Below, piece by piece: positions 18,806-41,965 of a DNA stretch of 45,038 bases. The DNA comes from Fibrobacterota bacterium (lineage in GTDB: Bacteria > Fibrobacterota > Chitinivibrionia > Chitinivibrionales > FEN-1185). The notes under the pieces were generated by a model that had not been told where the DNA came from, made no database searches, and saw only the letters and a program-made list of their open reading frames with translations. A program made the position numbers and the translations under genes. The stretch spans positions 79,029 to 124,066 of the forward strand of contig PLWQ01000005.1 of NCBI GenBank assembly GCA_003165595.1, written 5' to 3'. The first letter of the stretch is position 1, and each line of letters begins with the position of its first letter.

Positions 18806-19507
18806 CTAATCCGTGATCTTCATTCCCTTCACTATCCTCTCCCTCACCATTTCCGACAGCGTTGTTTTGTCAAGAGCGGGGAGGTCTGCGGGAAGAATCG
18901 GGTCGCCTATCACGATAGTTGCGGTGCCGGGCCTGAAGGTACCCCGGTGCTTGGGGAGAATGTCGCGCGTGCCGAGGATGGTCACGGGCACCACCGGGAC
19001 GCCGGCCTCGAACGCCAGCGCAAAGCTGCCGCGCTTGAACACGCCCACCTCTCCCGTCACGCTGCGCGTGCCTTCGGGAAAAAGAACGAGCGATATGCCC
19101 TCGCGTTTGAGCTTGTCCGTTGCGCGGGTGATGGACTTGCGCGCGGCACGCGCGTTGTCGCGGTCGATCCAGATGTGGCCGATGGCCGCGATGCCCCAGC
19201 CGAAGAAAGGGATGAAGAACAATTCCTTCTTGGCAATAAAGCTCAGCGAGTACGGCAACCCGGTATACAACACGGGAATGTCGAAGTAGCTCTGATGGTT
19301 GGCGACAAAAACGCAGCGATCCATGCCAGCGAGCTTTCCCGAGCCTTGCATCCTCACGCGGACGCCGCAGAATTTGGTGAGGTTTGCGCACCAGAGGTGC
19401 GCAAAGTACCGCGCCTTCCTGTTGCTGAGCGGGGAAAGCGCCATGGCTGCCGTGCCGTAGATCACTGTGCTTGCGAGCATCCACAGGACGGCTGCAAGGT
19501 TGTGCAT
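18806..19507 (-). CDS. plsC: 1-acyl-glycerol-3-phosphate acyltransferase
   Basis: A 233-residue membrane-bound acyltransferase that adds the second acyl chain to lysophosphatidic acid to make phosphatidic acid. Visible family motifs are NHQSYFD (His71, Asp76; HX4D), FPEGTRS (143-149) and the PVVPVTI region. One or two N-terminal membrane segments precede them. It follows dnaE in the same operon with a 17-base gap to the ATG at 19507. That ATG has no good Shine-Dalgarno sequence. A GTG at 19549, inside the end of dnaE and preceded by AAAGGA, is an alternative start. PlsX, which feeds the same pathway, lies in the fab cluster at 41 kb. Confidence 0.87.
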   Translation of the reverse strand: MHNLAAVLWMLASTVIYGTAAMALSPLSNRKARYFAHLWCANLTKFCGVRVRMQGSGKLAGMDRCVFVANHQSYFDIPVLYTGLPYSLSFIAKKELFFIPFFGWGIAAIGHIWIDRDNARAARKSITRATDKLKREGISLVLFPEGTRSVTGEVGVFKRGSFALAFEAGVPVVPVTILGTRDILPKHRGTFRPGTATIVIGDPILPADLPALDKTTLSEMVRERIVKGMKITD

Positions 19508-19524
19508 GATGTTGAGGGGACCGG

Positions 19525-22500
19525 CTACGCGGCCGCCTTGCTGATCCACACGTTTTCCTTTCCCAGCCGCTTGCGGAGCGCCTCGACGGTATCCTTGGCC
19601 GCATTGACGGTGACACTTCGGGCCTTTACCCGGTATTCGTTTTCTTCCTGCGTCGTGAGGTGGAGAACGAGGCTGCATTCCCCCTGCGTCTTGGCGCAGT
19701 CGTCGTACAGCATCTTGACAAAAGCCTCTTCGAGCCCCTGGGTCTTGAGCCGCACGTGGACGCTCCTGGCGAGTTTCTCGCGCGTTTCCGAAAGGGCGAT
19801 AACGTTGTCCACTTTGAGCTTGGGCTTCTTGTCGCCCTCCCGCACCGACACCTGGCCGCGCACGAGTATCATGGCGTCAAGCGCGAGCAGGTGCTTGAAT
19901 TTCTCGAATGCGTCGCCGAAGGCAAGCAGCTCCATGGAACCGTCGAAATCCTCGATTTCCAAAAACGCCATGGGCCTGCCGTCACGCTGAACGTGGGACT
20001 TGAGCACCGTAATGATGCCGCCCACGGTGAGGTTCTGCCCCTCGCGCACCTTTTCGAGCGATTCCAGCTTGAGCGAAATGTCGGCAAAACCCCGGATTTC
20101 GTCCTGAAAACGTTCGAGCGGGTGCCCGCTCACGTAGAAATTGAGAACGTCCTTTTCTTTTGCCAGCAGCTCGTTGTAGGGCCACGGTTCAACGTTGGCA
20201 AGCGGCGGTTCGGGAGGCGCGCTTTCTTCGGCCGTATTGCCGCCGCCGTCGAACAGGCTCGTCTGGCCGCTCTGGCGGTCTTTCTGGAACGAATTACCGT
20301 AGTCGATGGCCGCGTCGATGCTGGCGAACAACTGGGCGCGCGTGCCCTTGAGGCAGTCGAGCGCGCCGGCATACACCAGCGATTCGAGGCACTTCTTATT
20401 GACAAGACGCAAATCGACAGACGCGCACATCTCGAACAGGCTGGTGAATTTCCCCTTTTTCTTCCGTGCGTCGAGGACCGACTCGGCCGCCTTGCCAACG
20501 TTCTTGATGGTGCCCAGTCCCAGCCGAATTTTCCCCTCGTCGATGGAACATTCAAACTGGCTCTTGTTGACGTCGGGCGGAAGAATCTTGACCCCCATCC
20601 GCTCCGCTTCGTTCTTTATTGTCAATATCTCGTCCTGGTCCGAAAGGACGCTGGAGAGGTTGGCGGTGAGGAACTCGATCGGATAGTGCGCCTTGAGATA
20701 CGCGCATTGATAGGCGACATGGGCATACACGGTGGCATGGGCCTTGTTGAACCCGTACTCCGCGAATTTGGCCATGGTGTCGAACACTTCCTGCGCCACC
20801 TTCGCGTCTATCTTCTGCCGCTGCGCCCCTTCCATGAATTTCTTGCGCATGGCCTCCATTTTTTCCATGTCTTTTTTGCCCATCGCCTTGCGCAGGATAT
20901 CCGCCTGGCCGAGCGTGAACCCGCCCATCACTTGCGCGATACGCATCACCTGCTCCTGATAAATGATGACGCCGTAGGTGATGTTGAGAATGTTCTCAAC
21001 GAGTTTGTGGGGGTAGGAAACTTTTTCGCGGCCGTGCTTGCGATGGATGTAGACGGGAATGTTTTCCATGGGGCCGGGGCGGTACAGGGCATTCATGGCG
21101 ATGAGGTCGTTGATGCCCTCGGGCTTGAGCTTGCGGAGGTTGTCCTGCATGCCCTGCGATTCGAATTGGAACACGCCTACCGTCTCGCCGCGGCCCAGAA
21201 GCTCCATGGTTTTGGGGTCTGCGTCGGGAAGTTTCCAAAAGTCAAGCGCAGGCCCCCCGGCCTCAATGATGAGCTTGAGGCTGTCCTGCAGGATGGTGAG
21301 GGTGATGAGGCCCAAGAAGTCCATCTTGATGAGCCCAACTTCTTCCACGTACTTCATGTCGTACTGGGTCATCACGATGTCGGAATCGGGTTGTTTGAAC
21401 AGCGGAGCCCAGTTGACAACCGGGCCCGGCGCAATGATGACGCCGCCCGCATGCATGCCCGCCTGGCGGGCAAGTCCTTCGAGCACGCGCGCATGCCTAA
21501 AGAGTTCCGCATATTTGGGATTGGCCGCAATTGCCTGCTTGAGTTCACCGTTTGCGGCGACCGAATCGTCGATGTCCTTGTCGACCATGCCCGCGAGCTT
21601 GCCTGCTTCGGCAACCGAAATGCCCATCACCCGCGCCACGTCGCGCACCACCATCTTGGCCTTCATGCGGCCGAAGTTGATGATCTGGCTCACGGATTCC
21701 CGTCCGTATTTTCCGATCACGTAGTCGATGATCTTGTACCGGTCGCGGTCCGCAAAGTCTATGTCCGCGTCGGGCATGGAAACGCGCTCGGGATTGAGGA
21801 ACCGCTCGAAGAGGAGATCGAACTTTATCGGGTCCACGCTGGTAATGCCGATGGAATAGGCAACCAGGCTGCCGGCTGCGGAGCCGCGGCAGCCCGTGAG
21901 CACGTTGAGGGACGCAGCGGCATTGACAAAATCCCGCACCACGAGGAAGTACCCCTCGAACCCCATTTTGCAAATGACGCTCAGCTCGAATTCCAGCCGC
22001 TCGGTGAGCCCCGGCGTCACACGGGCGTATTTTTTCGAAAGCCCTTCGTGCGCAAGGTGGCTCAGGTATTCGGCCTCGGAGGAGAATCCGGAGGGAAACC
22101 CCGGCTTGGGGAGCTGGGCCGGAGCCTTGAGCTCCACGTTACAACGCTCGGCGATTTCCATCGTGTTGGAAAGCGCCTCCGGAATGTCGGGAAACAGCTT
22201 TGCCATTTCGTCGGGCGATTTGAAGTATATCTGGTCGGACCCGAACCGGTACCTCCCGGGGTCGTCCATGGTTGTCTGGGTCTGGATGCACAGCAGGATC
22301 TCGTGGGAGGCGGCATCCTCTTTGTTAAGATAGTGCGCGTCGTTGGCCACGATAAACGGGACGTTCATGCGCCTGCCCAGCTTGATGAGTTCGTCGAACG
22401 CAACGAGTTCCTTGTCGATGCCGTGGTTCTGCAGCTCGAAATAGAAATTCTCTTTCCCGAAAATGTCGATGTATGCCTCGGTAATGGTCTGCGCTTTCTT

Positions 22501-22965
22501 GACGTCGCCGGCGAGCAGCGCGCGCGGTATGGCGCCTCCCACGCAGGCGCTGGTGGCGATGATTCCCGCCGAGTATTTCCTGAGCACTTCCATGTCGATG
22601 CGCGGCTTGTAATAGAATCCTTCGAGGTATCCGATGCTGGAAAGTTGCATGAGATTCTTGTAGCCCTCGTTGTTGCGCGCGAGCAGGATCAGATGATGAT
22701 AATTCTCCTCGCCCGTTTTGGTCTTGTCGAGGCGCGACTGCGGGGCCACATAGGCTTCGAAACCGATGATGGGCTTGATGCCTTCCTTGAGGCAGGTGTT
22801 GTAGAATTCGACCGCGCCGAACATCCCCCCGTGGTCGGTGATGGCAAGGGCGGGCATGCCGAATTCCTTGGCCCTTGCCACGAGGTTCTTGATGCGAATC
22901 GCGCCATCGAGAAAGCTGTATTCGGTATGATTGTGCAAATGGACGAAATGAGACTGTTTGGTCAT
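19525..22965 (-). CDS. dnaE: DNA polymerase III alpha subunit
   Basis: The 1146-residue replicative polymerase of the DnaE1 type, of full length. The N-terminal PHP domain begins HLHNHTEYSFLDGA. The catalytic aspartates are Asp401 and Asp403 in PDADIDF and the Asp in IKMDFLGL. The fingers and tau-binding regions follow, and a C-terminal OB fold is visible near LTVGGIITVLKS and FLEIEDFDGSMELLAFGD. It synthesises the chromosome within the polymerase III holoenzyme. Its ATG overlaps the stop of the upstream XPB-N/WYL-like gene by 4 bases, so the two are translationally coupled. plsC follows after 17 bases. Confidence 0.97.
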   Translation of the reverse strand: MTKQSHFVHLHNHTEYSFLDGAIRIKNLVARAKEFGMPALAITDHGGMFGAVEFYNTCLKEGIKPIIGFEAYVAPQSRLDKTKTGEENYHHLILLARNNEGYKNLMQLSSIGYLEGFYYKPRIDMEVLRKYSAGIIATSACVGGAIPRALLAGDVKKAQTITEAYIDIFGKENFYFELQNHGIDKELVAFDELIKLGRRMNVPFIVANDAHYLNKEDAASHEILLCIQTQTTMDDPGRYRFGSDQIYFKSPDEMAKLFPDIPEALSNTMEIAERCNVELKAPAQLPKPGFPSGFSSEAEYLSHLAHEGLSKKYARVTPGLTERLEFELSVICKMGFEGYFLVVRDFVNAAASLNVLTGCRGSAAGSLVAYSIGITSVDPIKFDLLFERFLNPERVSMPDADIDFADRDRYKIIDYVIGKYGRESVSQIINFGRMKAKMVVRDVARVMGISVAEAGKLAGMVDKDIDDSVAANGELKQAIAANPKYAELFRHARVLEGLARQAGMHAGGVIIAPGPVVNWAPLFKQPDSDIVMTQYDMKYVEEVGLIKMDFLGLITLTILQDSLKLIIEAGGPALDFWKLPDADPKTMELLGRGETVGVFQFESQGMQDNLRKLKPEGINDLIAMNALYRPGPMENIPVYIHRKHGREKVSYPHKLVENILNITYGVIIYQEQVMRIAQVMGGFTLGQADILRKAMGKKDMEKMEAMRKKFMEGAQRQKIDAKVAQEVFDTMAKFAEYGFNKAHATVYAHVAYQCAYLKAHYPIEFLTANLSSVLSDQDEILTIKNEAERMGVKILPPDVNKSQFECSIDEGKIRLGLGTIKNVGKAAESVLDARKKKGKFTSLFEMCASVDLRLVNKKCLESLVYAGALDCLKGTRAQLFASIDAAIDYGNSFQKDRQSGQTSLFDGGGNTAEESAPPEPPLANVEPWPYNELLAKEKDVLNFYVSGHPLERFQDEIRGFADISLKLESLEKVREGQNLTVGGIITVLKSHVQRDGRPMAFLEIEDFDGSMELLAFGDAFEKFKHLLALDAMILVRGQVSVREGDKKPKLKVDNVIALSETREKLARSVHVRLKTQGLEEAFVKMLYDDCAKTQGECSLVLHLTTQEENEYRVKARSVTVNAAKDTVEALRKRLGKENVWISKAAA

Positions 22966-24770
22966 GCCGCCCCCACTCCGATTTTCTTGATCTTCCGTAA
23001 AAGAAACCTCTTCTTCGATTTCTTCGGCCCGATTTCCGCCTCTAGAAACGGTTCTTTCGCCTTGTGCACGGCAAGCGGCCTCACCTCATAGGTGCCCGCC
23101 CGTACATACGGGCTCCCCAGGTATTCAAACGTTGCGCCATGCCCCATGAGTACCGCGTAATCAAGCACGTGCAGCAGGTCGCTCATGTCAAGTTCCTTGA
23201 GCTTTTCCCCGTACTTTCCCGCTTTCACCGGCCGGGGCGGTGCTTCCGAGTCGGGTTCAAACGACACCACCGGCGTTATTTGCCTCGGTTCGGCCGGCGA
23301 CAGGTCGAGGGCCGGCCGATGCTTCTGCGGTTCGTTCTCGCCCGGGCCGCGAGGATCAAACCCCATTGTCACAAGGATTCTCCGCACCTCTTCTTCACTC
23401 CCGCGGCGTATCATGAATATTTTGTGCGGCCGCACCGGCGTCACAAGGTTCGTGAGCGGCGCGTACGAAAGTATCTGCTGTGACGCCTTCTCGTCGAACG
23501 AAACCACACAGCCGTGCGTGATGACACAGACCCTCGAAAACTCGCGGATCCACTCTCGCACCGTCTCCATCACGTTATGAGGCGCCTTCCACGCGGCGAG
23601 CCAATCCACCAGTTTCTTTTCGTCCGTGCCGGCGCTGAGTGAATTATTGATGATGTCGCGTTTGATTATCCCCTTGTAAACCTTATCGAGCGAGGAAACC
23701 TCGCCCACCTTGGTGAACCAGTAGAGTTCTTCCGGCAGAATCTCCTGCGACAACACGGCCGAAAAATCCGGGAGCAGGATAACCCTGGCCACGGGCAAGG
23801 CCTTTACAAGAGAAAGAATATCCTGCCGCCGTGCGGCCGAAAACACAAGGCCCGAGCCGACCTTGCAAACTTCAAGATAGCCGCAATACCACAGGGCGCA
23901 GGCGCTCGCCTCGGCGTCCCGCCGGGCCGCGTCGGGAAATCCGGATGTGCTGAGCCATGGCTTTGTCGGACCTTCAAACAGCTTGTCCATCACCGGCCTG
24001 CGCCACAGCGGTCCCTGCGCAAAGGCGTATTCGCAGAAATCCCCGCATCGGGCTTCCAGGGGAAGAGAAACCCATTCGGCAAGCTTGTCCTGCGCGACGA
24101 GATAGGCATCATTCTCGATCGCAAGGAGTTCGCGCGACACGGCATAGGAAAGCACCAGCGAAATGCAGGCTGCCCTGCCGGCTTCGGCTGCGGCTTCGCC
24201 TGCAGGAAGATCGCGGGAGGCGTGAAGGAATCTCCTGAGCGCAACCTCGGCAGCCTTGGAAAACGTTCCCTTTTTGGTCCTGTCGAGCATGCCGGTGGAG
24301 GCGAGCGTCGCACACATGACAAGGTCTGACAGGCAATACCACGGCATCGGCGCGGAGGTCGGCGCGCAGGCCTTGTTCCCCGCAACCGAAATGAGTGCAT
24401 CCGCGCACAGCAGGGCGAGCTTCGACTCAAACTCGGAGAATCCGTAGTAGGCGGCAACGCCCTTCTCGTCCTTGCCCGCGAAGACCAGAAAGGATGCAAG
24501 CAGCTCGTCGGAAGAAAAGCCTCGGAGTCCGGGCGCGGGAACTCCCATAGCGCCCGCAAGGTACACGGCCGCGCACAGCCGCTGCGCCTGAGGCGATAGG
24601 CGCTTGAACCGCGCCCACAGCGACTTGTCTGCGGCAAACAACCGTGCCGCGTCGTGAATAAGCGACGACGAGAGTATCCTCCGCTTGTGCCCCGCATCAC
24701 CCAAAACATTTTTAAACACGATGTCTGCGGGGAGCAGGCTGAGGTAATCTTCAAACGAGGGAAGAGTCAT
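22962..24770 (-). CDS. XPB/Ssl2 N-terminal-like protein with C-terminal WYL-like domain
   Basis: A 602-residue cytoplasmic protein. Residues around 340-420 match the helicase-associated (XPB/Ssl2 N-terminal, Helicase_C_3) pattern: VARVILLPDFSAVLSQEILP, then ELYWFTKVGEVSSLDKVYKG and SAGTDEKKLVDWLA. No Walker A or DEAD/H motif is present, so it has no motor of its own. The last about 70 residues (ATFEYLGS...YEVRPLAVHKAKEPFLEA...KKRFLLRKIKKI) resemble a WYL ligand/nucleic-acid sensing domain. I chose the ATG at 24770 because the longer frame upstream looks non-coding. The stop overlaps the dnaE start (ATGA). The coupling suggests a role in replication or its control (inference). Confidence 0.7.
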   Translation of the reverse strand: MTLPSFEDYLSLLPADIVFKNVLGDAGHKRRILSSSLIHDAARLFAADKSLWARFKRLSPQAQRLCAAVYLAGAMGVPAPGLRGFSSDELLASFLVFAGKDEKGVAAYYGFSEFESKLALLCADALISVAGNKACAPTSAPMPWYCLSDLVMCATLASTGMLDRTKKGTFSKAAEVALRRFLHASRDLPAGEAAAEAGRAACISLVLSYAVSRELLAIENDAYLVAQDKLAEWVSLPLEARCGDFCEYAFAQGPLWRRPVMDKLFEGPTKPWLSTSGFPDAARRDAEASACALWYCGYLEVCKVGSGLVFSAARRQDILSLVKALPVARVILLPDFSAVLSQEILPEELYWFTKVGEVSSLDKVYKGIIKRDIINNSLSAGTDEKKLVDWLAAWKAPHNVMETVREWIREFSRVCVITHGCVVSFDEKASQQILSYAPLTNLVTPVRPHKIFMIRRGSEEEVRRILVTMGFDPRGPGENEPQKHRPALDLSPAEPRQITPVVSFEPDSEAPPRPVKAGKYGEKLKELDMSDLLHVLDYAVLMGHGATFEYLGSPYVRAGTYEVRPLAVHKAKEPFLEAEIGPKKSKKRFLLRKIKKIGVGAA

Positions 24771-24948
24771 GGTATTTTCCGGAAATTGTTGCACACCCGC
24801 TCCAGCGGCGGCAAAGCGCAAAAATAGTTCATCCTGCAAGAGGCGTGGCGTCCAAACGCCTCGCCGGACATGCAGCTGCTTCAAATCGCGGTTCTCGCCG
24901 GGTTCGCCGTTCTTGTGCGAACGGGGAACGCCTCGTATTTTTGAAGCG

Positions 24949-25695
24949 ATGAACATTCCTCCTTCAAAGCCTTGTCCCTTGCGCGCTGCCCGCCAATCGT
25001 TTGCATCCGTGGTGTTTATTTCGCTGCTGTGCCACCTCGCGTTCCTTGCCCTTATCGTTGCCACAGCGAAGGCCGTTTACAAGTCTCACGAATACGAGCG
25101 TCCGCCCACGTTCGACCTTGTAAAGCTCTCGCAAATCTTTGAAATCCCGGCAGAACCGAAACTGGCCGCAGCGCCCAAGATGAAGTCTGCGGCACCCGGG
25201 CAAGTCGTGCGTCCTCTACCTGCGGTTTCGCAGCCGCAGGCTGCGCCTGTTGAAGAAAGGAATCCCCTTCCGAGCATTACCAAAACGGCTGCTCCCGCGC
25301 CGGCAGAGCCTGTTGCCCCTGCCGCTCCGGCGGCGCCGCAAACCGCAGCTACAGCCACAGCCACGGCCGGCTCGTCGGCCGGCGACGGAGTGTCGACCGA
25401 CAAGGTTTACGAAGCAGGAATGGTGGACGAGCAGCCGGTGGTTGTGAAGAAGATAGAGCCGTTCTACCCGGAATTTGTCAAGGACCAGAACATTGCCGGT
25501 ATCGTACGCGCGCAGGTTACCATAGACGAGAAGGGCAATGTGATGGAGGTAAAAATCCTCAGCTCGCCCCATGAACTTCTTACCAACGAGGTCATGAAGG
25601 CGGTGAGCCGGTGGAAGTACAAGCCGGGCAGGTTCAAGGGTATCGCGGTCAAGGTGCGAAACAGGCCAATCGAAATAGAATTCAAGCTGGAGTGA
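24949..25695 (+). CDS. TonB-family energy transducer
   Basis: A 248-residue protein with the TonB layout: a short cytoplasmic start, one membrane segment (about 18-40), a Pro/Ala/Lys-rich periplasmic span (about 60-140) and a TonB C-terminal domain (about 165-248). The domain has the typical FYPEFVKDQNIAGIVRAQ, DEKGNVMEVKIL and AVSRWKYKPG segments. It should carry proton-motive energy from an ExbB/ExbD complex to outer-membrane transporters. No exbBD genes are in the window. I chose the ATG at 24949 because it starts the membrane-anchor region. It is divergent from the XPB-N/WYL-like gene. Confidence 0.88.
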   Translation: MNIPPSKPCPLRAARQSFASVVFISLLCHLAFLALIVATAKAVYKSHEYERPPTFDLVKLSQIFEIPAEPKLAAAPKMKSAAPGQVVRPLPAVSQPQAAPVEERNPLPSITKTAAPAPAEPVAPAAPAAPQTAATATATAGSSAGDGVSTDKVYEAGMVDEQPVVVKKIEPFYPEFVKDQNIAGIVRAQVTIDEKGNVMEVKILSSPHELLTNEVMKAVSRWKYKPGRFKGIAVKVRNRPIEIEFKLE

Positions 25696-25733: not shown

Positions 25734-28700
25734 TCACGGCGCGACAATGTAAAAGTAATCGCTGTAGCCGTAAATCGTGGGGTCGGCTGTGCTCACCACC
25801 TGTATACGGTACCTGCCCGGCGTTTCCCCGGCAGGAACGGTCCATGGACAGCCGCCGGCGGTCGCAATGTAGCTGTTGCTCTGGAGCGCACCCGTTTGCA
25901 ACGAGTCGAAAAGCCAGATGGAAACGAAGCTGGAAGGGACATTGCCGTTGTCCGTCCACGCGATGGATTGCAGCGACCCGGCTTTCCACATGCTACTTGA
26001 CGAAGGCTCCGTCACCACGATTATCGACGGAACAGCAGAGATTGTGAAATAGCCGCTGTAAGCAAACACGGCGTCCCGGTCGGCATCTGCTATACGGATA
26101 CGGTACTGTGGTCCCGAGGTTAGTGTGGAAGGAATTGTCCAGAGGTAGTACCCCATTGACACGGCGGTCCTGGAAACAACGGTTCCGACAAAGTCGGTTG
26201 AATCGTACAGCTCAAGTTTGATATCGCTCACGGGCAAGCCGGTAACCGACCACGACACCTGGTAGGAAAGTCCCGATTTCCACGACATTTCCGAAGCCGG
26301 ATTCTCTATTGCGAACTGCGTCGGAGCCTGAACGACGGTAAAATAGTCGCTGAGCCCGTAGGCGGCGGGATTGCTGATGCTGGATATCCTGATCCGGTAC
26401 TTTGCATCCCCGACCAGCGCGGTCGGAATGAACCACAGGAAGCTCTGGCCGATCACCGACGTGGAAGCGGCTATCGTCTGCGAATACGCCGTGTCGTCGT
26501 ACAGGTCGATTCTTGCATAGGTTCCCACGTTTCCGGAACTCGACCAGTAAATGGGCCAGGCCGCCCCACCGGTCCACGTGGTGCCCTTGGCGGGCGAGGT
26601 GATGGAAAACGTCGACGGGATATTGATTATCCTGAAGGAGCTGCTCATGTTGTAAACCGAGGTATCGGCGGCGCTGGCTATTCGTATGCGATAATTTCCC
26701 GTGCCAAGACCGGACGGAATGGCCCAGGCGTAGGATTGGCTTGTCAGGTAAACACCCAACGAAATGGCAAGCGGTAAAGAGACGCTGTCGTATAAAGTCA
26801 GGTTTACAAACGGCCCCGGACTTCCCGTATAGGTCCAGAGAATCGAGTTGGTAGAGCCGGAGTTCCACAAAGTGGCCGTGTTCGGAGTTGTTATTGTCAA
26901 GGTGGACGGAACATGCGTAATGGTGAACGCGGCGCTGTAGCCGTACTCCGTGGTATCGCTGCTGTTGACGATCTTGATCCGGTATTTGCCCGTGGCGGTG
27001 CTCGCCGGTATGGTCCACGGGTACGAGCCGGACAGCCACAGCGTGCTCGCGGTGATGGTGGAAACCAGCCGGGCGCTGTCGAACAGGGCGAGCGACACAT
27101 AGGATCCCTGGCTACCGGTGGAAGTCCAATACACAGTGTTCACCGTCCCGCTGTTCCAGGCGGTGTACGCGGAAGGTGTTGTAATTGTTAATGTGTTCGG
27201 AGTGTGCGTGATGGTAAACGGCGCGCTGAGGCCGGAGACCGTGGTGTCGGAAGTGCTGGTGATTTTCAGCCTGTATTTTCCCGTGGCGAGCGCCAGCGGG
27301 ATAGACCAGGAATAGTATTCGTTCGACAGATAGGTGCTTTGAATGACGGATGTCGCCTGGGAGAGGCTGTCGATCAGCGAGATGCTCACCATCCCGCTCA
27401 GGTTTCCCGTGTAGACCCAATACACGGAATACGCGGTACCGGAGTTCCACGATGTTGCGGCGGACGGAGTCGTAATAGTCAAGGTGGTCGGCGTATGGGT
27501 GACCGTAAACGGCGGGCTGAAGGCGCTCACCGTCGTATCTCCCGTGCACACGATCCTGATACGGTATTTGCCTATTGCAAGCGTCCACGGCACGTCCCAG
27601 GCGTAGTACTGGTTGGCCAGGTAGGTGCCGCTCGATATCGTCGTTGCCTGCATAGCGCTGTCGTACAGCGTGAGAGTCATATAGGAGCTGGGGTTGCCCG
27701 TGTAGGTCCACGCCACCAAATAGGACGATCCCGTGTTCCACGATGATAGCGCCGAGGGCGCCGTTATCGCCACAGTGGTGGGGACGTGGATGATCGTAAA
27801 TGGCGCGCTCACCCCGGAAACCGTCGTATCGGCCGTGCTGGCGATCCTAATCCGGTATTTGCCCGTGGCCAGCGTCCAGGGCACTGCCCACGTATAGTAT
27901 TGGTTTGCCAGGTATGTGCCGGTCGAAATCGTCGCCACCAGAGAGACGCTGTCGTACAACGCGAGATTCACGTAGGACCCGAGGTTCCCGGTATAGTTCC
28001 AGGCAATGGAATACGAAGAACCCGTGCTCCAGCTTGCCGAGGACGAGGGGGTAGTGACCATGAGACTCGTGGGAACATGCGTTATCGTAAATGCGGAGCT
28101 GTACCCGAACAGCGACGTATCGCCTACGCTGGTGATTCTTATCCGGTACGCACCCGACGAAACAAGCCTGTTGGGGAGCGTCCACGAGTAATAGTCGTTG
28201 GACAGGTAGACACTCGAAGCGATAGTCGAAACCAGCGAGCCGCTGTCGTATAAATCAAGATTCACATAGGAACCGGGATTCCCCGAATAACTCCAATCGA
28301 TCGAATAGGTGCCACCCGTGCTCCAATTGGTGGAACCCGAGGGAACGGTGACGCTCAGGGTGGTTGGTATATGCACAACGGTAAACTGGTCGCTGAAATC
28401 GTGAATGGACGTGTCGTCGCTGCTCACGATTTTGATACGGTAATTCGAAGAACCCGGGAGCGACCAGGGAATCGTCCAGTTGTAAGATCCGTAATATCCT
28501 ACTCCAGTTGCAATGGTGCTCGCAAGCGTGTCGTCCCGGTATGCGTACAGGGAAACGTAACTCCCCGAATTTGCCGAATGCGCCCAAGCGATGTTCATCT
28601 CCTCACCGCTGGAATAGACTTTCGTACCAGATGCGGGAGAAGTCATCACGAGCATTGCGCCGGAAGCATGGACCTCAACCGTGTAGTCGGATGTTGAGGA

Positions 28701-29381
28701 ATAATAATCGGTGGCGGTGACCCGGAAATAATACGTTCCCGAAACGGGACAGGTCCAGATAATCAGGCCGTTGTACCCGGCGCCGCCGTAACTGCTGGAG
28801 GCGAGCATGGTAAACGCGTCGGTGGAAAAGAGCTGCAAATACACTTCGCCGCTCCCGCGCGTCTCGATGCAGTAGGTTCGTCCGGCCGTCGCAGAGAACT
28901 TGAACCAATCGGTGTCGTCTCCGCCGATACGGTGCAGCTGCGGCGTTCCGATGGTGTCGATGAGCGTTGCAAGCCAACTCCAATTGTCGGGCTCATAGGC
29001 GTCGGAATTGTTGACGATAGTAAATCCGCCGCTGAAACCCCGCACCGGGTCGGACCCGGTTCCCGATATCGCGATACAATAGTTGGTCCCTCCGGCCACG
29101 GACGTTGGAATGCGCCATGCGAATGAACCGGTGTTCGGCGCGGACGAAACGATAGGAAGCGTGACGCCGGTGTAATCGTACAAGTCAATTGCGACCGTGC
29201 TGTCGCGCGGGCCCGACCATGTCCACTGCACGGTGCAGGTGCACCCTGCCGTCCAGGAGCTCGACGGCGCGGGCACCGTCACCTGCACCGACGGTGCCGT
29301 TTCGACGCCCAGGTCCCTTGACCCGCACGATGCCACGAGAGCCGCAAGGACCGCGCACAATAATTCCCGCAAGTTTCGCAT
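25734..29381 (-). CDS. Giant repeat lipoprotein with 11 Ser/Thr-rich beta repeats and one PPC domain
   Basis: A 1215-residue lipoprotein with lipobox LVASC (Cys19). After one divergent repeat there is a pre-peptidase C-terminal (PPC)-type domain (about residues 120-235, DAYEPDNW...DTDWFKFSA). Ten more tandem repeats of about 95 residues then run to the end. Each begins with the pattern TPSxxxxWNSGTxYSVxW, passes SYVSLALYDS and YYxWxIP, and ends YRIRIxSTxDTTVxGxSAPFTI. This matches the Ser/Thr-rich (Kre9/KNH-like) beta-sandwich family. It should be a long rod on the cell surface. It is the third gene of a minus-strand group, 45 bases after the PPC lipoprotein gene. The function is probably adhesion or scaffolding (inference). 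Confidence 0.85.
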   Translation of the reverse strand: MRNLRELLCAVLAALVASCGSRDLGVETAPSVQVTVPAPSSSWTAGCTCTVQWTWSGPRDSTVAIDLYDYTGVTLPIVSSAPNTGSFAWRIPTSVAGGTNYCIAISGTGSDPVRGFSGGFTIVNNSDAYEPDNWSWLATLIDTIGTPQLHRIGGDDTDWFKFSATAGRTYCIETRGSGEVYLQLFSTDAFTMLASSSYGGAGYNGLIIWTCPVSGTYYFRVTATDYYSSTSDYTVEVHASGAMLVMTSPASGTKVYSSGEEMNIAWAHSANSGSYVSLYAYRDDTLASTIATGVGYYGSYNWTIPWSLPGSSNYRIKIVSSDDTSIHDFSDQFTVVHIPTTLSVTVPSGSTNWSTGGTYSIDWSYSGNPGSYVNLDLYDSGSLVSTIASSVYLSNDYYSWTLPNRLVSSGAYRIRITSVGDTSLFGYSSAFTITHVPTSLMVTTPSSSASWSTGSSYSIAWNYTGNLGSYVNLALYDSVSLVATISTGTYLANQYYTWAVPWTLATGKYRIRIASTADTTVSGVSAPFTIIHVPTTVAITAPSALSSWNTGSSYLVAWTYTGNPSSYMTLTLYDSAMQATTISSGTYLANQYYAWDVPWTLAIGKYRIRIVCTGDTTVSAFSPPFTVTHTPTTLTITTPSAATSWNSGTAYSVYWVYTGNLSGMVSISLIDSLSQATSVIQSTYLSNEYYSWSIPLALATGKYRLKITSTSDTTVSGLSAPFTITHTPNTLTITTPSAYTAWNSGTVNTVYWTSTGSQGSYVSLALFDSARLVSTITASTLWLSGSYPWTIPASTATGKYRIKIVNSSDTTEYGYSAAFTITHVPSTLTITTPNTATLWNSGSTNSILWTYTGSPGPFVNLTLYDSVSLPLAISLGVYLTSQSYAWAIPSGLGTGNYRIRIASAADTSVYNMSSSFRIINIPSTFSITSPAKGTTWTGGAAWPIYWSSSGNVGTYARIDLYDDTAYSQTIAASTSVIGQSFLWFIPTALVGDAKYRIRISSISNPAAYGLSDYFTVVQAPTQFAIENPASEMSWKSGLSYQVSWSVTGLPVSDIKLELYDSTDFVGTVVSRTAVSMGYYLWTIPSTLTSGPQYRIRIADADRDAVFAYSGYFTISAVPSIIVVTEPSSSSMWKAGSLQSIAWTDNGNVPSSFVSIWLFDSLQTGALQSNSYIATAGGCPWTVPAGETPGRYRIQVVSTADPTIYGYSDYFYIVAP
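25740..28650 (-). repeat. Tandem coding repeats of about 290 bases
   Basis: Ten consecutive repeats in the giant lipoprotein gene. The central copies (about 26,900-28,100) are closest to each other, and the outer copies are more diverged. This is the pattern expected if copies are gained and lost by recombination in the middle of the array. Confidence 0.7.
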
Positions 29382-34557: not shown

Positions 34558-35715
34558 TTATTCCGCGGTTGCAGCCCCTTTGATAAGCGCAAGCGCGATT
34601 TCGTTGCGCTGGATCTGGTTCGTGCCTTCGTAAATCTGGGTGATCTTGGCGTCCCGCATCCGCTTTTCCATGGGATATTCGCGCATATACCCGTAGCCGC
34701 CCATCACCTGAACCGCATCCACCGTAACCTTCATGGCCGTGTCGGAACAGAAAAGCTTTGTCATTGCGGATTCCCGCGCGAATTTCTTTTCGCCGGCGTC
34801 AATGGTTCTTGCTGTCGCGTACATGAGAGCGCGGCCCGCCTCCACCTGTGTCGCCATGTCGGCCAGCATGTGCTGGACGGCCTGAAACGACGAAATGGGC
34901 GCCCCGAACTGGATTCGTTCGCGCGAATACTTTACGGCATCATCAAGCGCGCCGGCCGCGATGCCCAGCGCCTGCGCTCCCACCCCCGGCCGCGAATAGT
35001 TGAGTGTGTTGATGGTTACAATGGCGCCCATGCCCTCGCGCGACAGCAGGTTGGCCTTCGGAATTCTGCAATCCTGAAAAACGAGTTCGGTGGTGCTCGA
35101 TGCGCGGATTCCCATTTTGTCTTCGTGCTTGCCGAACGTGAATCCCGGCGTTCCCTTTTCCACGATAAATGCGCTTATCCCCCGGGCACCTTTGGCAGGA
35201 TTGGTCTTAGCCATCACCGTATAGATCTCGGCGTTTTCGCCGTTGGTAATCCACTGTTTGGTCCCGTTGAGCACGTACTGGTCTCCGCTGAGAACCGCCG
35301 TGGTCCTCATGCCCAGCGCGTCCGATCCGGCGTTGGCCTCGGTGAGCCCGAACGCCGCGAGCTTCTTTCCCGATGCTATGTCGGGAAGGTATTTCTTCTT
35401 TTGTTCCTCGGTGCCGAACAAGAGAATGGGAAACGTGCCCAGCGCGGTCGCGGCGATGGCCAGGGAAATACCGCCGTCCACCTTGGACAGCTCCTCAATC
35501 GCAAGGCACAGATCAAGTACGCCGCCGCCGAAGCCGCCGTAGGCCTCGGGAATATACAGGCCGCAGAGATCCGCCTCGGCGCATGCCTTTACCACGTCCC
35601 ACGGAAAAATTCCTTCACGGTCGTAGTGCTCGCGAACAGGCAATATCTTTTTCTGCGCCAGTTCGCGCGCAGTTTCGACGATCATCTGCTGTTCCTCGGT
35701 GAGAAACCAGTTCAT
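34558..35715 (-). CDS. Acyl-CoA dehydrogenase
   Basis: A 385-residue FAD enzyme that introduces a 2,3-double bond into acyl-CoA and passes electrons to an electron-transfer flavoprotein. The sequence has the family layout: an N-terminal helical domain, a middle beta domain (FGLTEANAGSDALGM, WITNGENA) and a C-terminal helical domain. The catalytic base is Glu363 in IYEGTNQIQR, as in short-chain enzymes. No etfAB or thiolase is nearby. Its ATG overlaps the rnc stop (ATGA), so it belongs to the fatty-acid synthesis operon, an unusual place for a degradative-type enzyme. Confidence 0.93.
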   Translation of the reverse strand: MNWFLTEEQQMIVETARELAQKKILPVREHYDREGIFPWDVVKACAEADLCGLYIPEAYGGFGGGVLDLCLAIEELSKVDGGISLAIAATALGTFPILLFGTEEQKKKYLPDIASGKKLAAFGLTEANAGSDALGMRTTAVLSGDQYVLNGTKQWITNGENAEIYTVMAKTNPAKGARGISAFIVEKGTPGFTFGKHEDKMGIRASSTTELVFQDCRIPKANLLSREGMGAIVTINTLNYSRPGVGAQALGIAAGALDDAVKYSRERIQFGAPISSFQAVQHMLADMATQVEAGRALMYATARTIDAGEKKFARESAMTKLFCSDTAMKVTVDAVQVMGGYGYMREYPMEKRMRDAKITQIYEGTNQIQRNEIALALIKGAATAE

Positions 35716-36506
35716 GGCGTTGGTGCTCCTTTGCTGAGTGTAATAGTTTCCTTGTTGTAGCTCTTGAGCGCTTCGCGCGCGGCATTCTGCTCGGCTATTT
35801 TCTTGTTGGGCCCTGTGCCTTCGCCGAGCGCGACGCCGCCCACCTCGATGTGTATGGTGAATTCCTTGGCATGCTCGGGCCCCGTCGCCGACACCACCCG
35901 GTACCGGGGAATGCCAAAACCGTCGCGTTGCGCCAGTTCGAGTATCCTGCTCTTGTAATTGATGTTGTTTTCGTCCAGGAGAAACCCGTTTATGCTGCCA
36001 AACAGGAATCGGTTCAGAAACACTCTCGCTTTGTCCAGTCCGCCGTCGAGGAACACGGCGCCCAGCACCGCCTCGAACGCGTTTGACAGAATCGACATCC
36101 GCTGGTTGCCGCCGGATTTGCGCTCCGAGTACCCGAAAATCAAAAAGTCGCCGAGATTGAACGAGTAGGCAATTTCGCCGAGGATTTTGCGGCTCACCAC
36201 CAGGGACTTTACTTTAGACAGCTGGCCTTCCGATCGTGTCGGATACATCTTGTACAGATGTTCGGTGATCAGGCAGTTGAGCACCGCGTCACCCAGGAAC
36301 TCCAGCCGCTCGTTGGACATGAGGCCTTTCTTGTCGTCGGGACCAACGCTTGATTTGTGGGTGAGCGCAAGGGTGAGCAGATCGGGGTCACGGAACACGT
36401 ACCCGATTGTCTTTTCAAACGCCGAAAGCGACGTTCCGGGACGGACTGACTTTCGAAATCGGAAAAGAAACCTGAGGAAATCGCCTGGCTTGCTACGCCG
36501 GTTCAT
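35712..36506 (-). CDS. rnc: Ribonuclease III
   Basis: A 264-residue double-strand-specific endoribonuclease that matures rRNA and some mRNAs. The RNase III signature NERLEFLGDAVL is at 65-76, and the second catalytic region is NAFEAVLGAVFLDGG. A double-stranded RNA-binding domain follows at the C-terminus (ILELAQRDGFGIPRYRV...KKIAEQNAAREAL). I prefer the ATG at 36506 (GGAAAAT upstream); an ATG at 36530 is an alternative. Either start overlaps the end of fabF. rnc next to fabF and acpP is a common bacterial arrangement. Confidence 0.94.
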   Translation of the reverse strand: MNRRSKPGDFLRFLFRFRKSVRPGTSLSAFEKTIGYVFRDPDLLTLALTHKSSVGPDDKKGLMSNERLEFLGDAVLNCLITEHLYKMYPTRSEGQLSKVKSLVVSRKILGEIAYSFNLGDFLIFGYSERKSGGNQRMSILSNAFEAVLGAVFLDGGLDKARVFLNRFLFGSINGFLLDENNINYKSRILELAQRDGFGIPRYRVVSATGPEHAKEFTIHIEVGGVALGEGTGPNKKIAEQNAAREALKSYNKETITLSKGAPTP

Positions 36507-37737
36507 ATTTTCCAGCAACCAGGGACGCATTGTGGCCGCCGAAACCGAAGGAGTTGCTCATGGCGTACCGCACGCTCCGCTTTACGGCCGTGTTCGGAGT
36601 GTAGTTGAGATCGCACTCGGGGTCGGGGTCTTCGTAGTTGATGGTCGGATGTATGAGGTCGTTTTGGATGGTGAGCGCGGTGGCGATAAATTCGACTCCG
36701 CCCGATGCGCCGAGGAGGTGACCGGTCATTGACTTAGTGGAACTCACGTTGACTTTCTGCGCATGCCCGCCGAACACATTTTTGATGGCTAGCGTCTCGA
36801 GCTTGTCGTTGAGATCGGTGGACGTCCCGTGCGCGTTGATGTAATCAACGGCGTCGGGTTTGATCCCGGCCGATACAAGCGACATGGCCATTGCGCGCTG
36901 CGCGCCTTCGCCGTCCGGCGCGGGCGCGGTAAGATGATACGCGTCGCCGGTTGCACCGTACCCGAGGAGTTCGCAGTAGATTGCGGCATTGCGGGCCAGG
37001 GCATGATCGAGTGTTTCCAGCACAACGATTCCGGATCCTTCGCCCATGACAAACCCATCGCGCTTTTTATCGAACGGCGAGCTTGCTTTCTCAGGATGAT
37101 CATTGCGCGTGGACAACGCTTTGAGCGAGCAGAACCCGGCGTAGGACAGCGGCGTAATGGCGGCTTCCGCCCCGCCGCAGATCGCGACGTCCATCATGCC
37201 TGCCTTGAGCATGAGAAACGACTCCCCGATGGAGTGACCTGCAGATGCGCAGGCACTTACCACGCTGAAATTAGGTCCCTTAAATCCATAGCCGATTGAA
37301 ACCCTGCCGGCAGCCATGTCGGTGATCATCATGGGAATAAGAAACGGAGACACGCGTCCGGGACCGCGGGCTATCAGCTTGGAATGCTCGGCTTCCAGGG
37401 TCCTTAGACCGCCGACGCCCGAGCCAATAACTGTACCGATGCGCGTGAGGTCTTCTCGGGCAAGATCGAGTTTGGCGTCCTTAATGGCCTGGTCCGCGGC
37501 GGCAACGGCAAAGAGAATGAAGCGGTCGGTCCTGTTGATTTCCTTGAGGTCGACAAGATCGCCCATTTCGAGAGCCTTGACTTCTCCGGCAATTTTGGAC
37601 GGATAATTCGCGGTATCGAAAGTGGTAATGTAATCGATTCCGGATTTCCCTGCACATAGTGAATCCCAGAATGATTCCACAGTATTGCCTACGGGGCTGA
37701 TTACCCCCAGACCGGTGACCACTACTCTCTTGGACAT
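36493..37737 (-). CDS. fabF: 3-oxoacyl-ACP synthase II
   Basis: A 414-residue condensing enzyme that elongates acyl-ACP with malonyl-ACP. The Cys-His-His triad is Cys163 (SACASAG), His303 (NAHGTSTDLND) and His340 (SMTGHLLGASG), identical in position to the E. coli enzyme. The length is typical. It follows acpP after 28 bases, with only a weak ribosome-binding site (GAAAG), which suggests coupling to the strongly translated acpP. The 3' end overlaps rnc. Confidence 0.97.
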   Translation of the reverse strand: MSKRVVVTGLGVISPVGNTVESFWDSLCAGKSGIDYITTFDTANYPSKIAGEVKALEMGDLVDLKEINRTDRFILFAVAAADQAIKDAKLDLAREDLTRIGTVIGSGVGGLRTLEAEHSKLIARGPGRVSPFLIPMMITDMAAGRVSIGYGFKGPNFSVVSACASAGHSIGESFLMLKAGMMDVAICGGAEAAITPLSYAGFCSLKALSTRNDHPEKASSPFDKKRDGFVMGEGSGIVVLETLDHALARNAAIYCELLGYGATGDAYHLTAPAPDGEGAQRAMAMSLVSAGIKPDAVDYINAHGTSTDLNDKLETLAIKNVFGGHAQKVNVSSTKSMTGHLLGASGGVEFIATALTIQNDLIHPTINYEDPDPECDLNYTPNTAVKRSVRYAMSNSFGFGGHNASLVAGKYEPA

Positions 37738-37765
37738 CACGTATCGACTTTCGTTATTGGATTGG

Positions 37766-37999
37766 TTAGAGTTTCTTTTCAAGATAGTCGACGGCATCCT
37801 TGACAGTACGAAGCTTCTCAGCGTCCTCGTCGGGAATCTCTATGTCGAACGCGTCTTCAAAAGCCATGATAAGCTCGACCTGATCGAGTGAATCCGCGCC
37901 AAGATCTTCGACAAAGGAAGCCTGAGGCGTCACCTTGTCTTCGGATACGCCAAGCTTCTCTGCGATAATCTGCTTAATCTTGGTTTCTTTCTCGCTCAC
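37766..37999 (-). CDS. acpP: Acyl carrier protein
   Basis: A 77-residue acidic carrier. Ser37 in [16 protein letters not shown] is the site for the 4'-phosphopantetheine arm that holds the growing acyl chain. The start is GTG, with AGGAG about 7 bases upstream. It serves FabD, FabH, FabG and FabF, all encoded beside it. Confidence 0.97.
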
Positions 38000-38072
38000 G
38001 CTAAACTCCTTTCGAGAGTGTTAAAGGTACACCTTGTTATTTTTGAGCCCCTATAAAATGATTTCTTCCGCA

Positions 38073-38816
38073 TCACATTACAAGCCCGCCATCAACCGGA
38101 ATTACCTGGCCGGTGATGTAGTCGGCGAGACCGGATGCAAGGAAGAGCACTGCGTTGGCGACATCGAGCGGCATGCCGAGCCGCTGCATCGGGATCTGGG
38201 ATGCCAGCTTTTCCTTGTCTTGCGGCGAGAGTTTTTCGGTCATGGCGGTCTGGATAAAACCCGGCGCAACCGCGTTTACCTGGATGTTGCGGCTTGCAAA
38301 TTCCCGTGCAAGGGTCTTGGTGAGCCCGATGAGACCGGCCTTTGAAGCCGAGTAATTTGCCTGGCCCGCGTTTCCCATGATTCCCACCACGGAAGCTATG
38401 TTGACGATTTTCCCGGTTCTTGCCTTCATCATGAGACGCGCGACTTCTTTGCAACAGAGGAACGCACTCTTGAGGTTGATCGCAAGCACCAGGTCCCAGT
38501 CTTCTTCTTTCATGCGCACGATAAGGCCGTCTCTGGTGATGCCCGCGTTGTTCACAAGGATATCGAGCGTGGGAAATGTTGCGCTGAACGCGGAGACCAT
38601 TTCGGCAATATCCGATGCTTTCGAAACATCGCAGCGAAGCGCCTTTGCGCTGCGGCCCAATGCCTGCACTTCCGCGGCAGTGGATTGCGCGGTAGCCTCG
38701 TCAAGATCACACACCCCGACGTTCGCGCCCGCCTTTGCAAGCGTGAGCGCGATTTCTCTTCCAATGCCTCGTCCCGCTCCGGTCACGAGCGCGTTTCTTC
38801 CTGCAAGTTGGATCAC
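38073..38816 (-). CDS. fabG: 3-oxoacyl-ACP reductase
   Basis: A 247-residue short-chain dehydrogenase that reduces 3-oxoacyl-ACP with NADPH. The nucleotide motif is VTGAGRGIG (11-19), NNAG is at 89-92, and the catalytic residues are Ser142, Tyr155 and Lys159 (YSASK). I chose the GTG at 38816 because GGAG lies 8 bases upstream and the protein then has the usual FabG N-terminus and length. An ATG seven codons earlier is an alternative. The 85-base gap to fabD holds no clear signal. Confidence 0.95.
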   Translation of the reverse strand: MIQLAGRNALVTGAGRGIGREIALTLAKAGANVGVCDLDEATAQSTAAEVQALGRSAKALRCDVSKASDIAEMVSAFSATFPTLDILVNNAGITRDGLIVRMKEEDWDLVLAINLKSAFLCCKEVARLMMKARTGKIVNIASVVGIMGNAGQANYSASKAGLIGLTKTLAREFASRNIQVNAVAPGFIQTAMTEKLSPQDKEKLASQIPMQRLGMPLDVANAVLFLASGLADYITGQVIPVDGGLVM

Positions 38817-38901
38817 CGTAGAGACTCCGCTCCGCATTTCATTAAAAACGAAACCATCAAAACTATATCAGCAGCGCGCAATCCGGGCAAAAAAAACGGG
38901 G

Positions 38902-39816
38902 CTAACGAACCATTGAATATACGTTTTCAACTGTTCCGCATGGAACAATATTCATGGACGAATCGCATTTTTTCACCAGACCCGACAGCACGGTGCCGGG
39001 GCCAACTTCGCAGCATGTTCCGGGATCGTTTGCGGCGATGGTCGCCACCGATTCCACCCAGCGTACGGGCGATGTAAGCTGTTTGACAAGAAGCGCCTTG
39101 ATGGCGGCGGCTGAAGTTTCGCAGTTCGCCGTTACATTCGCCACAAGCGGACACGCAGGATCCTTGAAACCAAACTGTTGCAGAAAAACGGAAAATTCGT
39201 CGGCTGACGGCGCCATAAGCGGTGAATGGAACGCGCCGCTCACCGAAAGCATGAGCGCGCGCTTTGCACCAGCTTTCTTGAGCAGGTCACATGCCTGTGT
39301 CACCGCGGTGACCTCTCCGGAAATAACGGTTTGGTCGGGGGTGTTTTCATTTGCACATACCACAATGCCCGCGACCTGGGCAAGACATTCCTTGATTTTG
39401 GGCTTGGGAAACCCGATTACGGCAGCCATGGTGCCGGGCCTTTTGATACCGGCGGCCGCCATAAGCTCGCCCCTTTTTGCCACAATGGTTAAACCGTCCC
39501 GGAAGGAAAACACTCCCGCGGCATACAGAGCGCTATATTCGCCCAGGGAATGCCCTGCGGCGAGCGCCGGCACAATTCCCTTTTCCCTGAGAACATCGCA
39601 AATTATCGCACCCACGGCAAAAAGCGCCGGCTGCGTGTTCTGCGTTTGCGTCAGGTCCGCTTCGGGACCGTTGAATATGATTGACGTGAGATCGCGGCCC
39701 AGCACCTGGTTGCATTCGTCAAAGCGCCGGCTGGCAAGCTCGAAGGTGTCGTAAAAGTCTTTCCCCATGCCCACCTTCTGGGAGCCCTGACCGGGGAAAA
39801 GAAACGAGTATCGCAT
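38902..39816 (-). CDS. fabD: Malonyl-CoA:ACP transacylase
   Basis: A 304-residue enzyme that loads malonyl groups onto ACP. The nucleophile is Ser90 in GHSLGEY. The N-terminus FLFPGQGSQKVGMG and the downstream SGAFHSPLM (active-site His) are standard. The ATG at 39816 has AGGAG 8 bases upstream; the TTG just before it is unlikely to be the start. It is separated from fabH by 146 bases that contain an AT-rich palindrome. Confidence 0.96.
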   Translation of the reverse strand: MRYSFLFPGQGSQKVGMGKDFYDTFELASRRFDECNQVLGRDLTSIIFNGPEADLTQTQNTQPALFAVGAIICDVLREKGIVPALAAGHSLGEYSALYAAGVFSFRDGLTIVAKRGELMAAAGIKRPGTMAAVIGFPKPKIKECLAQVAGIVVCANENTPDQTVISGEVTAVTQACDLLKKAGAKRALMLSVSGAFHSPLMAPSADEFSVFLQQFGFKDPACPLVANVTANCETSAAAIKALLVKQLTSPVRWVESVATIAANDPGTCCEVGPGTVLSGLVKKCDSSMNIVPCGTVENVYSMVR

Positions 39817-39848
39817 CAATCAATCTCCTGTTCAGTAAGGATGAGGAG

Positions 39849-39919
39849 TTTCAAGTTCAAAGTTTAAAGTGAAAAGTGAACACTTTTCTTCCAACTTGCA
39901 ACTTCAAACTTTCAACCTG
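39849..39919. repeat. AT-rich imperfect palindrome between fabH and fabD
   Basis: A run of AAGTTTAAAGT-like units (GTTTCAAGTTCAAAGTTT and so on) is followed, after the centre GAAAAGTGAACACTTTTC, by the inverted form (CAACTTCAAACTTTCAAC). The composition is much more AT-rich than the surroundings. Similar repeats of the AAGTTTAAAG type occur widely in bacterial genomes. It may be a small dispersed repeat that inserted in the operon, or an mRNA hairpin between fabH and fabD. Confidence 0.6.
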
Positions 39920-39965
39920 CCTGTCCGACCTCCGCAAATCTGCGTTTGGTCTCATCAATGTTCAG

Positions 39966-40928
<963 letters not shown>

Positions 40929-40929
40929 C

Positions 40930-41925
40930 TTATCGTGCGCCTTTCACGAGCATTGTTGTGCCTGCAGCAAGCGCACGCTTCCGCACTGCGGCGATTGCGG
41001 CAAGGATGGCGTTTGCAATGGCCTTTGAGGTGGAGCTGCCATGCGCCTTAAGCACCGCTCCACGGATGCCCAGGAACGGTACGGCGCCATAGTTTTCCGG
41101 GTTGAGCACTCCGTCCATCGCGAGTTCGAATTTCTCCAGAAGCCCCGATTTTCCTCCGAGCATGCCGCAGGCGAGCGAATAAAAGCTCTCGCAGGTTTTG
41201 AGGAGAACGTTGCCCGCAAAACCGTCGCACACGACGACGTCGGCCTCACCCCGAAGCACGCCCGAGCCTTCAATGAATCCGCAGTACCCTTTGCACAGGG
41301 TCTCGAGTTTTTGCCCTGCCTCAAACAGCAGCCGCGTACCTTTGGTGGGCTCCTCTCCTATGTTAAGTAACTTGAGCCTCGGAGAAGGATTGCCGCAGAA
41401 TCTCTTGACATAGGAATACCCCATTTGTCCAAAACACACGAGATGATCCGCCCGACAGTTGAGGTTCGCACCGACATCCAGGAGGAGCACTTGGCCTCTG
41501 CCGGCCGTCGGCAACAGAGCCGCCAAGGCAGGACGCAGGGCGCCCGGCTGGCGTCCAAGAATAAAAAGCGCGGCGCTCATGAGAATTCCCGTGTCGCCCG
41601 CGCTTACCGATGCATCGACTTTGCCCTGCTTCTGGAGCGCAACGATCCGGATAATGGGTGCGTCTGTTTTTGTCTTCCACACGCGAGTCGGGCTCTCGCC
41701 CGGTTGCACGTTGTCGTTGCAGTTTTCAATAATCAGACGGCTGTCGCCGTCCTTTTCTGCGCCTCCGGATTCGCGCAACAGCGCACGAATCTTCTCCCGG
41801 TCACCGCACAGATATGCGACGAACGATTCCTGTGCAAGGCGCTGCGCTTCCAGGACTCCATCGATGATGACCCGGGAGCCCTTGTCACCGCTCATGACAT
41901 CAATGGCGAGGCGGATGGGACGCAT
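40930..41925 (-). CDS. plsX: Phosphate acyltransferase
   Basis: A 331-residue enzyme that converts acyl-ACP to acyl-phosphate, which PlsY uses to start phospholipid synthesis. The N-terminus RLAIDVMSGDKG and the segment VSAGDTGILMSAALFILGR are family hallmarks, as is the C-terminal VVCDGFAGNVLLKTCE. The ATG at 41925 lies 40 bases after rpmF and gives the usual N-terminus. A longer frame would overlap rpmF. It has no strong ribosome-binding site and may be coupled to rpmF. Confidence 0.95.
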   Translation of the reverse strand: MRPIRLAIDVMSGDKGSRVIIDGVLEAQRLAQESFVAYLCGDREKIRALLRESGGAEKDGDSRLIIENCNDNVQPGESPTRVWKTKTDAPIIRIVALQKQGKVDASVSAGDTGILMSAALFILGRQPGALRPALAALLPTAGRGQVLLLDVGANLNCRADHLVCFGQMGYSYVKRFCGNPSPRLKLLNIGEEPTKGTRLLFEAGQKLETLCKGYCGFIEGSGVLRGEADVVVCDGFAGNVLLKTCESFYSLACGMLGGKSGLLEKFELAMDGVLNPENYGAVPFLGIRGAVLKAHGSSTSKAIANAILAAIAAVRKRALAAGTTMLVKGAR

Positions 41926-41965
41926 TGTAGACTTGGCAATGATACGGTTTGCTGCGGTTGTAGTC

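Follow-up and report, generated by a model that had tools for sequence, protein, structure and literature searches.

Here we report on a gene in a 45,038-nucleotide stretch of contig PLWQ01000005.1 (the window), which belongs to a Fibrobacterota bacterium with a genome of 5.39 Mb. The gene is the first of an operon that also includes dnaE and plsC, and its product is predicted to resemble p52 (Tfb2 in yeast), the subunit of transcription factor IIH (TFIIH) that, in animals and fungi, anchors XPB, the motor that opens DNA, and activates it. The operon and the domains of the p52-like protein are as follows:

22962..24770, minus strand: p52/Tfb2-like protein of 602 amino acids with a C-terminal WYL-like domain, first gene of the operon (602 codons, 24770-22965; stop to 22962)
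22962..22965, minus strand: ATGA stop/start overlap of the p52-like gene with dnaE (dnaE ATG at 22965)
19525..22965, minus strand: dnaE, alpha subunit of DNA polymerase III (Pol III), 1146 amino acids, identified by domain search
18806..19678, minus strand: plsC, 1-acylglycerol-3-phosphate acyltransferase, identified by its acyltransferase domain
23796..24770, minus strand: residues 1-325, N-terminal region, largely helical, with hairpins resembling those of winged helices (secondary structure as modelled)
23349..23792, minus strand: residues 327-474, clutch domain with the fold of the XPB N-terminal domain (PF13625)
23217..23348, minus strand: residues 475-518, variable linker of low confidence (predicted local distance difference test, pLDDT, about 40-65)
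22965..23216, minus strand: residues 519-602, divergent WYL-like domain

The initial annotation had described a 602-residue protein whose gene overlaps dnaE by four bases and is followed by plsC, and the ATGA at 22962-22965 confirms this arrangement. The dnaE product is a full Pol III alpha subunit with PHP, NTPase, finger, HHH and OB domains, and plsC probably starts at the ATG at 19507, 17 bases past the dnaE stop codon. A scan for promoters and terminators gave results at chance level.

Fold and domain composition

Because searches of Pfam, NCBIfam and the PDB with the single sequence returned only weak or chance matches (PsaE), family profiles and a structural model were needed. AlphaFold2 models were obtained for the window protein (27 sequences; pLDDT 85; predicted template modelling score 0.73) and for a homologue from Fibrobacteraceae (pLDDT 85), and were compared with the PDB using Foldseek. 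The 16 best matches of the window model were p52/Tfb2 chains (best match 8ebs_D, E 4.5e-9, 517 alignment columns), and the crystal structure of p52 (6trs_B) matched with an E-value of 1.5e-6. Chains 8ebt_D and 7o4i_2 and those of yeast structures 7k01, 7ml0 and 7zs9 were confirmed as p52/Tfb2, and 6trs by its title; the others were assigned from label and length. Below p52 followed XPB N-domains (about 160 columns; root-mean-square deviation, rmsd, 3.6-6) and then the WYL proteins CapW (9c5g, 8e-4), DriD (about 1e-3), BrxR and PafBC. With the second model, p52 chains held ranks 1-22 (best 6e-11), followed by XPB and BrxR. In the two models, p52 matches had E-values 10^4 to 10^7 times lower than XPB matches (about 500 vs about 160 columns). 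These computed fold matches suggest a relationship between this bacterial protein and TFIIH p52/Tfb2. The Foldseek alignments (about 515-525 columns) span most of p52 and, being too long for the clutch alone, must run into residues 1-325, which may correspond to the winged helices of p52; the global rmsd is about 20 Å.

The clutch domain was also recognized from sequence. PF13625, the XPB/Ssl2 N-terminal domain (Pfam name Helicase_C_3), matched 23 of 27 relatives (best 2e-9); the window protein scored 19 bits, under the cut-off of 34.2 bits, which was exceeded by L027 (38.0 bits), G167 (41.7 bits) and G166 (47.3 bits). Residues 325-475 aligned with the N-domain of the phylum's own XPB (hhalign 95%, E 3e-8, 110 columns), which together with the Foldseek matches bears out the XPB/Ssl2 N-terminal-like region of the initial annotation; the lack of a helicase motor stated there is likewise upheld, as Pfam found no RecA motor domains (ResIII, ERCC3_RAD25_C) in the window protein or its relatives. 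When a clutch profile was searched against 177,635 PDB sequences, Tfb2 took ranks 1-3 and p52/Tfb2 accounted for 6 of the 15 matches, with no XPB among them and with weak E-values (0.07-0.96); the identity of these matches agrees with the structural comparison. The alignment of the clutch has one invariant residue, W407, within the motif NVxETVxEWIREFSR, which in a sub-threshold second segment of the same search aligned with Tfb2 PPTVVDQIRLWQLELDR, the conserved tryptophan being in register. The full-length profile gave chance matches to PDB sequences. The Pfam family Tfb2 (PF03849) matched five relatives weakly, through the part of the family model that holds the clutch (E 0.07-0.18).

In the model, residues 519-602 fold into one helix and a sheet of five strands; they run colinear with WYL in a single hhalign comparison (69 columns, E 1e-4) and most simply account for the matches to DriD, CapW and BrxR. 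Pfam did not detect the WYL family (PF13280) in the window protein and matched a few relatives weakly (E 0.04-0.13). The C-terminal WYL domain of the initial annotation is therefore supported as a fold, by these structural matches together with the colinear alignment, and is divergent. In genera g8, g26 and g28 the p52-like protein has about 490-540 amino acids and seems to be without the WYL-like end (L074, L075, L071, L184, L185, L192); in all of these genera, its gene is unlinked from dnaE. The description as an XPB-N/WYL fusion thus held for both folds, but the whole protein resembles p52/Tfb2 more than XPB-N plus WYL. The full-length likeness to p52/Tfb2 had been missed, as had the XPB and the DinG/XPD-like helicase of the phylum.

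Conservation and gene order in Fibrobacterota

A first search among relatives recovered homologues of the p52-like protein in 39 of 41 genomes, and a second profile found the gene in 161 of 168 Fibrobacterota genomes, including 88 of the 89 of good quality. It is almost always present in one copy; where a genome had two entries, these were, as far as listed, pieces of one gene. The p52-like gene is part of the core genome of Fibrobacterota, as a single copy. The profiles of the window family and the Fibrobacteraceae family align as homologues over their whole length (hhalign 100%, E 8e-44, 583 columns), with 17% identity in the profile alignment. In G013 (L072:4291-6301), the gene is split into three overlapping open reading frames ahead of an intact dnaE, by frameshifts or assembly errors. 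A scan of genome contigs with a single peptide pattern matched Fibrobacterota only, with the named relatives in Chitinispirillales/Chitinivibrionia, which says little about other phyla, and a tblastn search for the protein in plasmids found nothing.

The first search yielded 30 loci from the order Chitinispirillales, two of them cut by a contig end. In all 28 readable loci, dnaE lies directly downstream, with a 4-base overlap in 24, a 1-base overlap in two, 17 bases in one and a short gap in one. In the groups not covered by these loci, dnaE comes immediately after the p52-like gene in g13, g14, g25, g30, g32, g33, g34, g36, g37 and g41, and in one of the four genomes of g38. Counted by genus, dnaE is directly downstream in all readable Chitinispirillales genera but two, and in nine genera of other families, in one of them only partly. 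The p52-like gene directly precedes dnaE in 29 of the 40 genera with readable context (g23, where a contig end cuts the locus, is left out) and is kept apart from it in 11 (g5, g8, g24, g26-29, g31, g35, g39 and g40), among them the Fibrobacter-like g24. Since the 29 genera are spread over the phylum, the simplest explanation is an ancestral link to dnaE that was lost several times. Four-base gene overlaps on their own are common; the conservation of the overlap throughout the order and the phylum-wide adjacency to dnaE are well beyond chance. The structure comparison and homologue survey proposed in the initial annotation thus returned both folds and homologues linked to dnaE, not the absence of either fold or a scatter of unlinked homologues.

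The other neighbours vary. Ten named loci of Chitinispirillales have plsC after dnaE, and the link to plsC in the initial annotation is stable within this order but not phylum-wide, which makes plsC look like operon company and not like a functional clue. In some Fibrobacteraceae, an lpxB-like gene (identified by eye) follows dnaE in the place that plsC has in Chitinispirillales (L063:10039-10501, L183:8747-9501). Directly upstream of the p52-like gene, Fibrobacteraceae usually encode a protein of about 910 amino acids that fuses an RNase_T exonuclease with a DinG/XPD-type helicase domain (Helicase_C_2):

L060:463-3216, L063:1460-4180, L181:6010-8730 and others: exonuclease-DinG fusion upstream of the p52-like gene

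The order exonuclease-DinG gene, p52-like gene, dnaE was found in g30, g33 and g34 (seven genomes), and in G166 and G167 the upstream neighbour is queA. In the window, the p52-like gene is preceded by a divergent gene for a TonB-C protein (24769-25695, plus strand), whose listed start overlaps that of the p52-like gene, a later ATG being more likely. A TonB-C gene also adjoins the p52-like gene in G001, and the Chitinispirillales loci showed no further match to tonB. Elsewhere in the window are a gene for a secreted-looking protein of 1215 amino acids with about ten similar repeats, recognized by eye (25734-29381, minus strand), and a probable and ordinary rnc-fabF-fabG-fabD-fabH-plsX fatty-acid cluster, also read by eye (35712-41991, minus strand).

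Possible role in the cell

A true XPB (PF13625 with ResIII and ERCC3_RAD25_C) was found in 158 of 168 Fibrobacterota genomes, and the window genome encodes XPB together with one DinG/XPD-type helicase:

G000:C27 (L001:1483-3153), plus strand: XPB helicase

On this basis, the clutch would pair with the XPB N-domain of the same cell and regulate XPB, as p52 does in TFIIH. We give an even chance to the reading, drawn by analogy, that the protein is a p52-like partner of bacterial XPB, with a helical region of winged-helix type, a clutch and a WYL-like end, which is made together with Pol III and acts at forks or gaps. The protein would stimulate or position the XPB translocase, the WYL-like domain may sense single-stranded DNA or another ligand, and translational coupling to DnaE could match the amount of the protein to that of the replicative polymerase, so that XPB would be used at stalled forks or at gaps filled by Pol III. 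The clamp, sensor or regulator at the replication fork put forward in the initial annotation is likewise conjectural. With L/Y590 and K593, by our reading of the alignments, at the positions of the two arginines that PafB needs for binding single-stranded DNA (PMC11804915), sensing of single-stranded DNA by the WYL-like domain is possible. An extension of this reading, in which XPB, the p52-like subunit with its WYL-like sensor and the exonuclease-DinG protein (XPD-like) would make up a smaller version of the TFIIH helicase core that is tied to replication, the p52-like subunit being synthesized alongside Pol III, is put forward tentatively, as a possibility.

Several observations weigh against a p52-like partner of XPB. 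When superposed at full length, the model fits p52 poorly (TM 0.2-0.3, rmsd about 20 Å) and the matches are local; the predicted domains match those of p52, whereas the way they are arranged is either different or wrongly predicted. By sequence, p52 is weakly favoured over XPB-N (E 0.07). The p52-like gene was never seen beside xpb (in G019, some 20 kb of one contig separate the two), and their co-occurrence is weak evidence because both genes are near-universal, so that presence and absence are uninformative. No match to Tfb4 (p34) or Tfb5 (p8) was found in 21 genomes, in searches that had no positive control. The p8/Tfb5-binding end of p52 is absent, with the WYL-like domain in its place, in which the W-Y-L motif reads P-F-L and the PafB arginine positions hold L/Y590 and K593 (from our reading of the alignments), so that one arginine is lost. 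Because this p8-binding domain is missing and the best relative reached 12.4 bits against a Pfam cut-off for Tfb2 of 34.5 bits, the protein is named p52-like and not p52.

The strongest signal from gene context is dnaE and not xpb, with adjacency in 29 of 40 genera and, within Chitinispirillales, mostly with translational coupling. This would suit a Pol III accessory protein that binds DnaE or the clamp loader and holds DNA at the fork via its winged helices and WYL-like domain, without any role for XPB. We consider such a protein somewhat unlikely, as 11 genera including g24 keep the gene away from dnaE, the folds of p52 and XPB-N are known mutual partners, and XPB occurs throughout the phylum. 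A WYL-type transcription regulator of its own dnaE operon or of a damage regulon, resembling PafBC, DriD and BrxR, is plainly unlikely: the winged-helix-like elements, the C-terminal WYL-like domain and the presence of WYL regulators among the structural matches speak for it, but at 600-640 amino acids the protein is about double the usual size (about 300), its entire non-WYL part matches p52 and not a helix-turn-helix regulator, the ligand residues of WYL are poorly conserved, and the gene persists in genera that lack the linkage to dnaE.

It is quite improbable that the match to p52 is a by-product, arising from a paralogue of the XPB N-domain set among generic winged helices and not related to p52 by descent. 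The p52 clutch and XPB-N are structurally homologous (PMC6422496), Pfam found PF13625 and Tfb2 only weakly, and the global TM is low; against this, p52 is ahead of XPB in both models, with about 500 columns vs about 160, and the clutch profile by itself favours Tfb2 at the sequence level. This lead of p52 in both models is why an XPB paralogue was rejected as the principal interpretation. A phage-defence component, suggested by WYL proteins often marking defence islands and by the frequency of WYL domains in defence regulators (PMC9122601), was rejected as highly improbable, since the gene is a universal one-copy core gene (161 of 168 genomes) whose housekeeping neighbours are stable.

Comparison with known systems

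A p52-like partner would be of interest for the function of bacterial XPB. Actinobacteria such as Mycobacterium tuberculosis presumably have a motor-less PF13625 protein, Rv0862c, encoded next to xpb, which serves as a lead only; in the literature searched, no paper names both Rv0862c and XPB. If such actinobacterial proteins belong to the same family, bacterial p52 would be broader than Fibrobacterota, and the WYL fusion and the coupling to dnaE would be special to this phylum. A biochemical study of XPB of M. tuberculosis in 2012 reported that bacteria had yielded no homologues of p44 and p52 and that their XPB probably works without being part of a complex like TFIIH (PMC3353954), and a review of 2026 describes the function of bacterial and archaeal XPB as more elusive (PMC13024598). 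In the literature searched, which covered a minority of subscription papers and preprints, no paper joins XPB with WYL and none describes a bacterial p52. The present p52-like core gene could point to the partner of bacterial XPB and, together with a near-universal XPB, makes a TFIIH-like partnership directly testable; it also bears on the origin of TFIIH and would tie the machine to the replicative polymerase and not to transcription.

Among known proteins, the closest is p52/Tfb2/GTF2H4 (PF03849), which ranks first in structure for both models over almost the whole length of p52 and with which the Fibrobacterota protein shares a clutch domain of XPB-N fold. It differs in being bacterial, in its low identity (about 11%), in its link to DNA polymerase III, in the WYL-like domain at the p8-binding end and in a domain arrangement unlike that of p52. 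With XPB/Ssl2 it has in common the fold of the N-terminal domain (residues 327-474), whereas it is without a helicase motor and carries about 325 extra N-terminal residues, and the genome has a separate true XPB. DriD, CapW, BrxR and PafBC share the fold of residues 519-602, which here have a P-F-L motif, with one ligand arginine replaced by L/Y and the other by K593, and are not joined to a small helix-turn-helix regulator. A precedent for WYL on a helicase machine is provided by the Pif1 helicases TePif1 and DdPif1, in which a C-terminal WYL domain binds single-stranded DNA and is needed for unwinding (PMC9964779), although in the present case the domain sits on a motor-less protein and not on the helicase.

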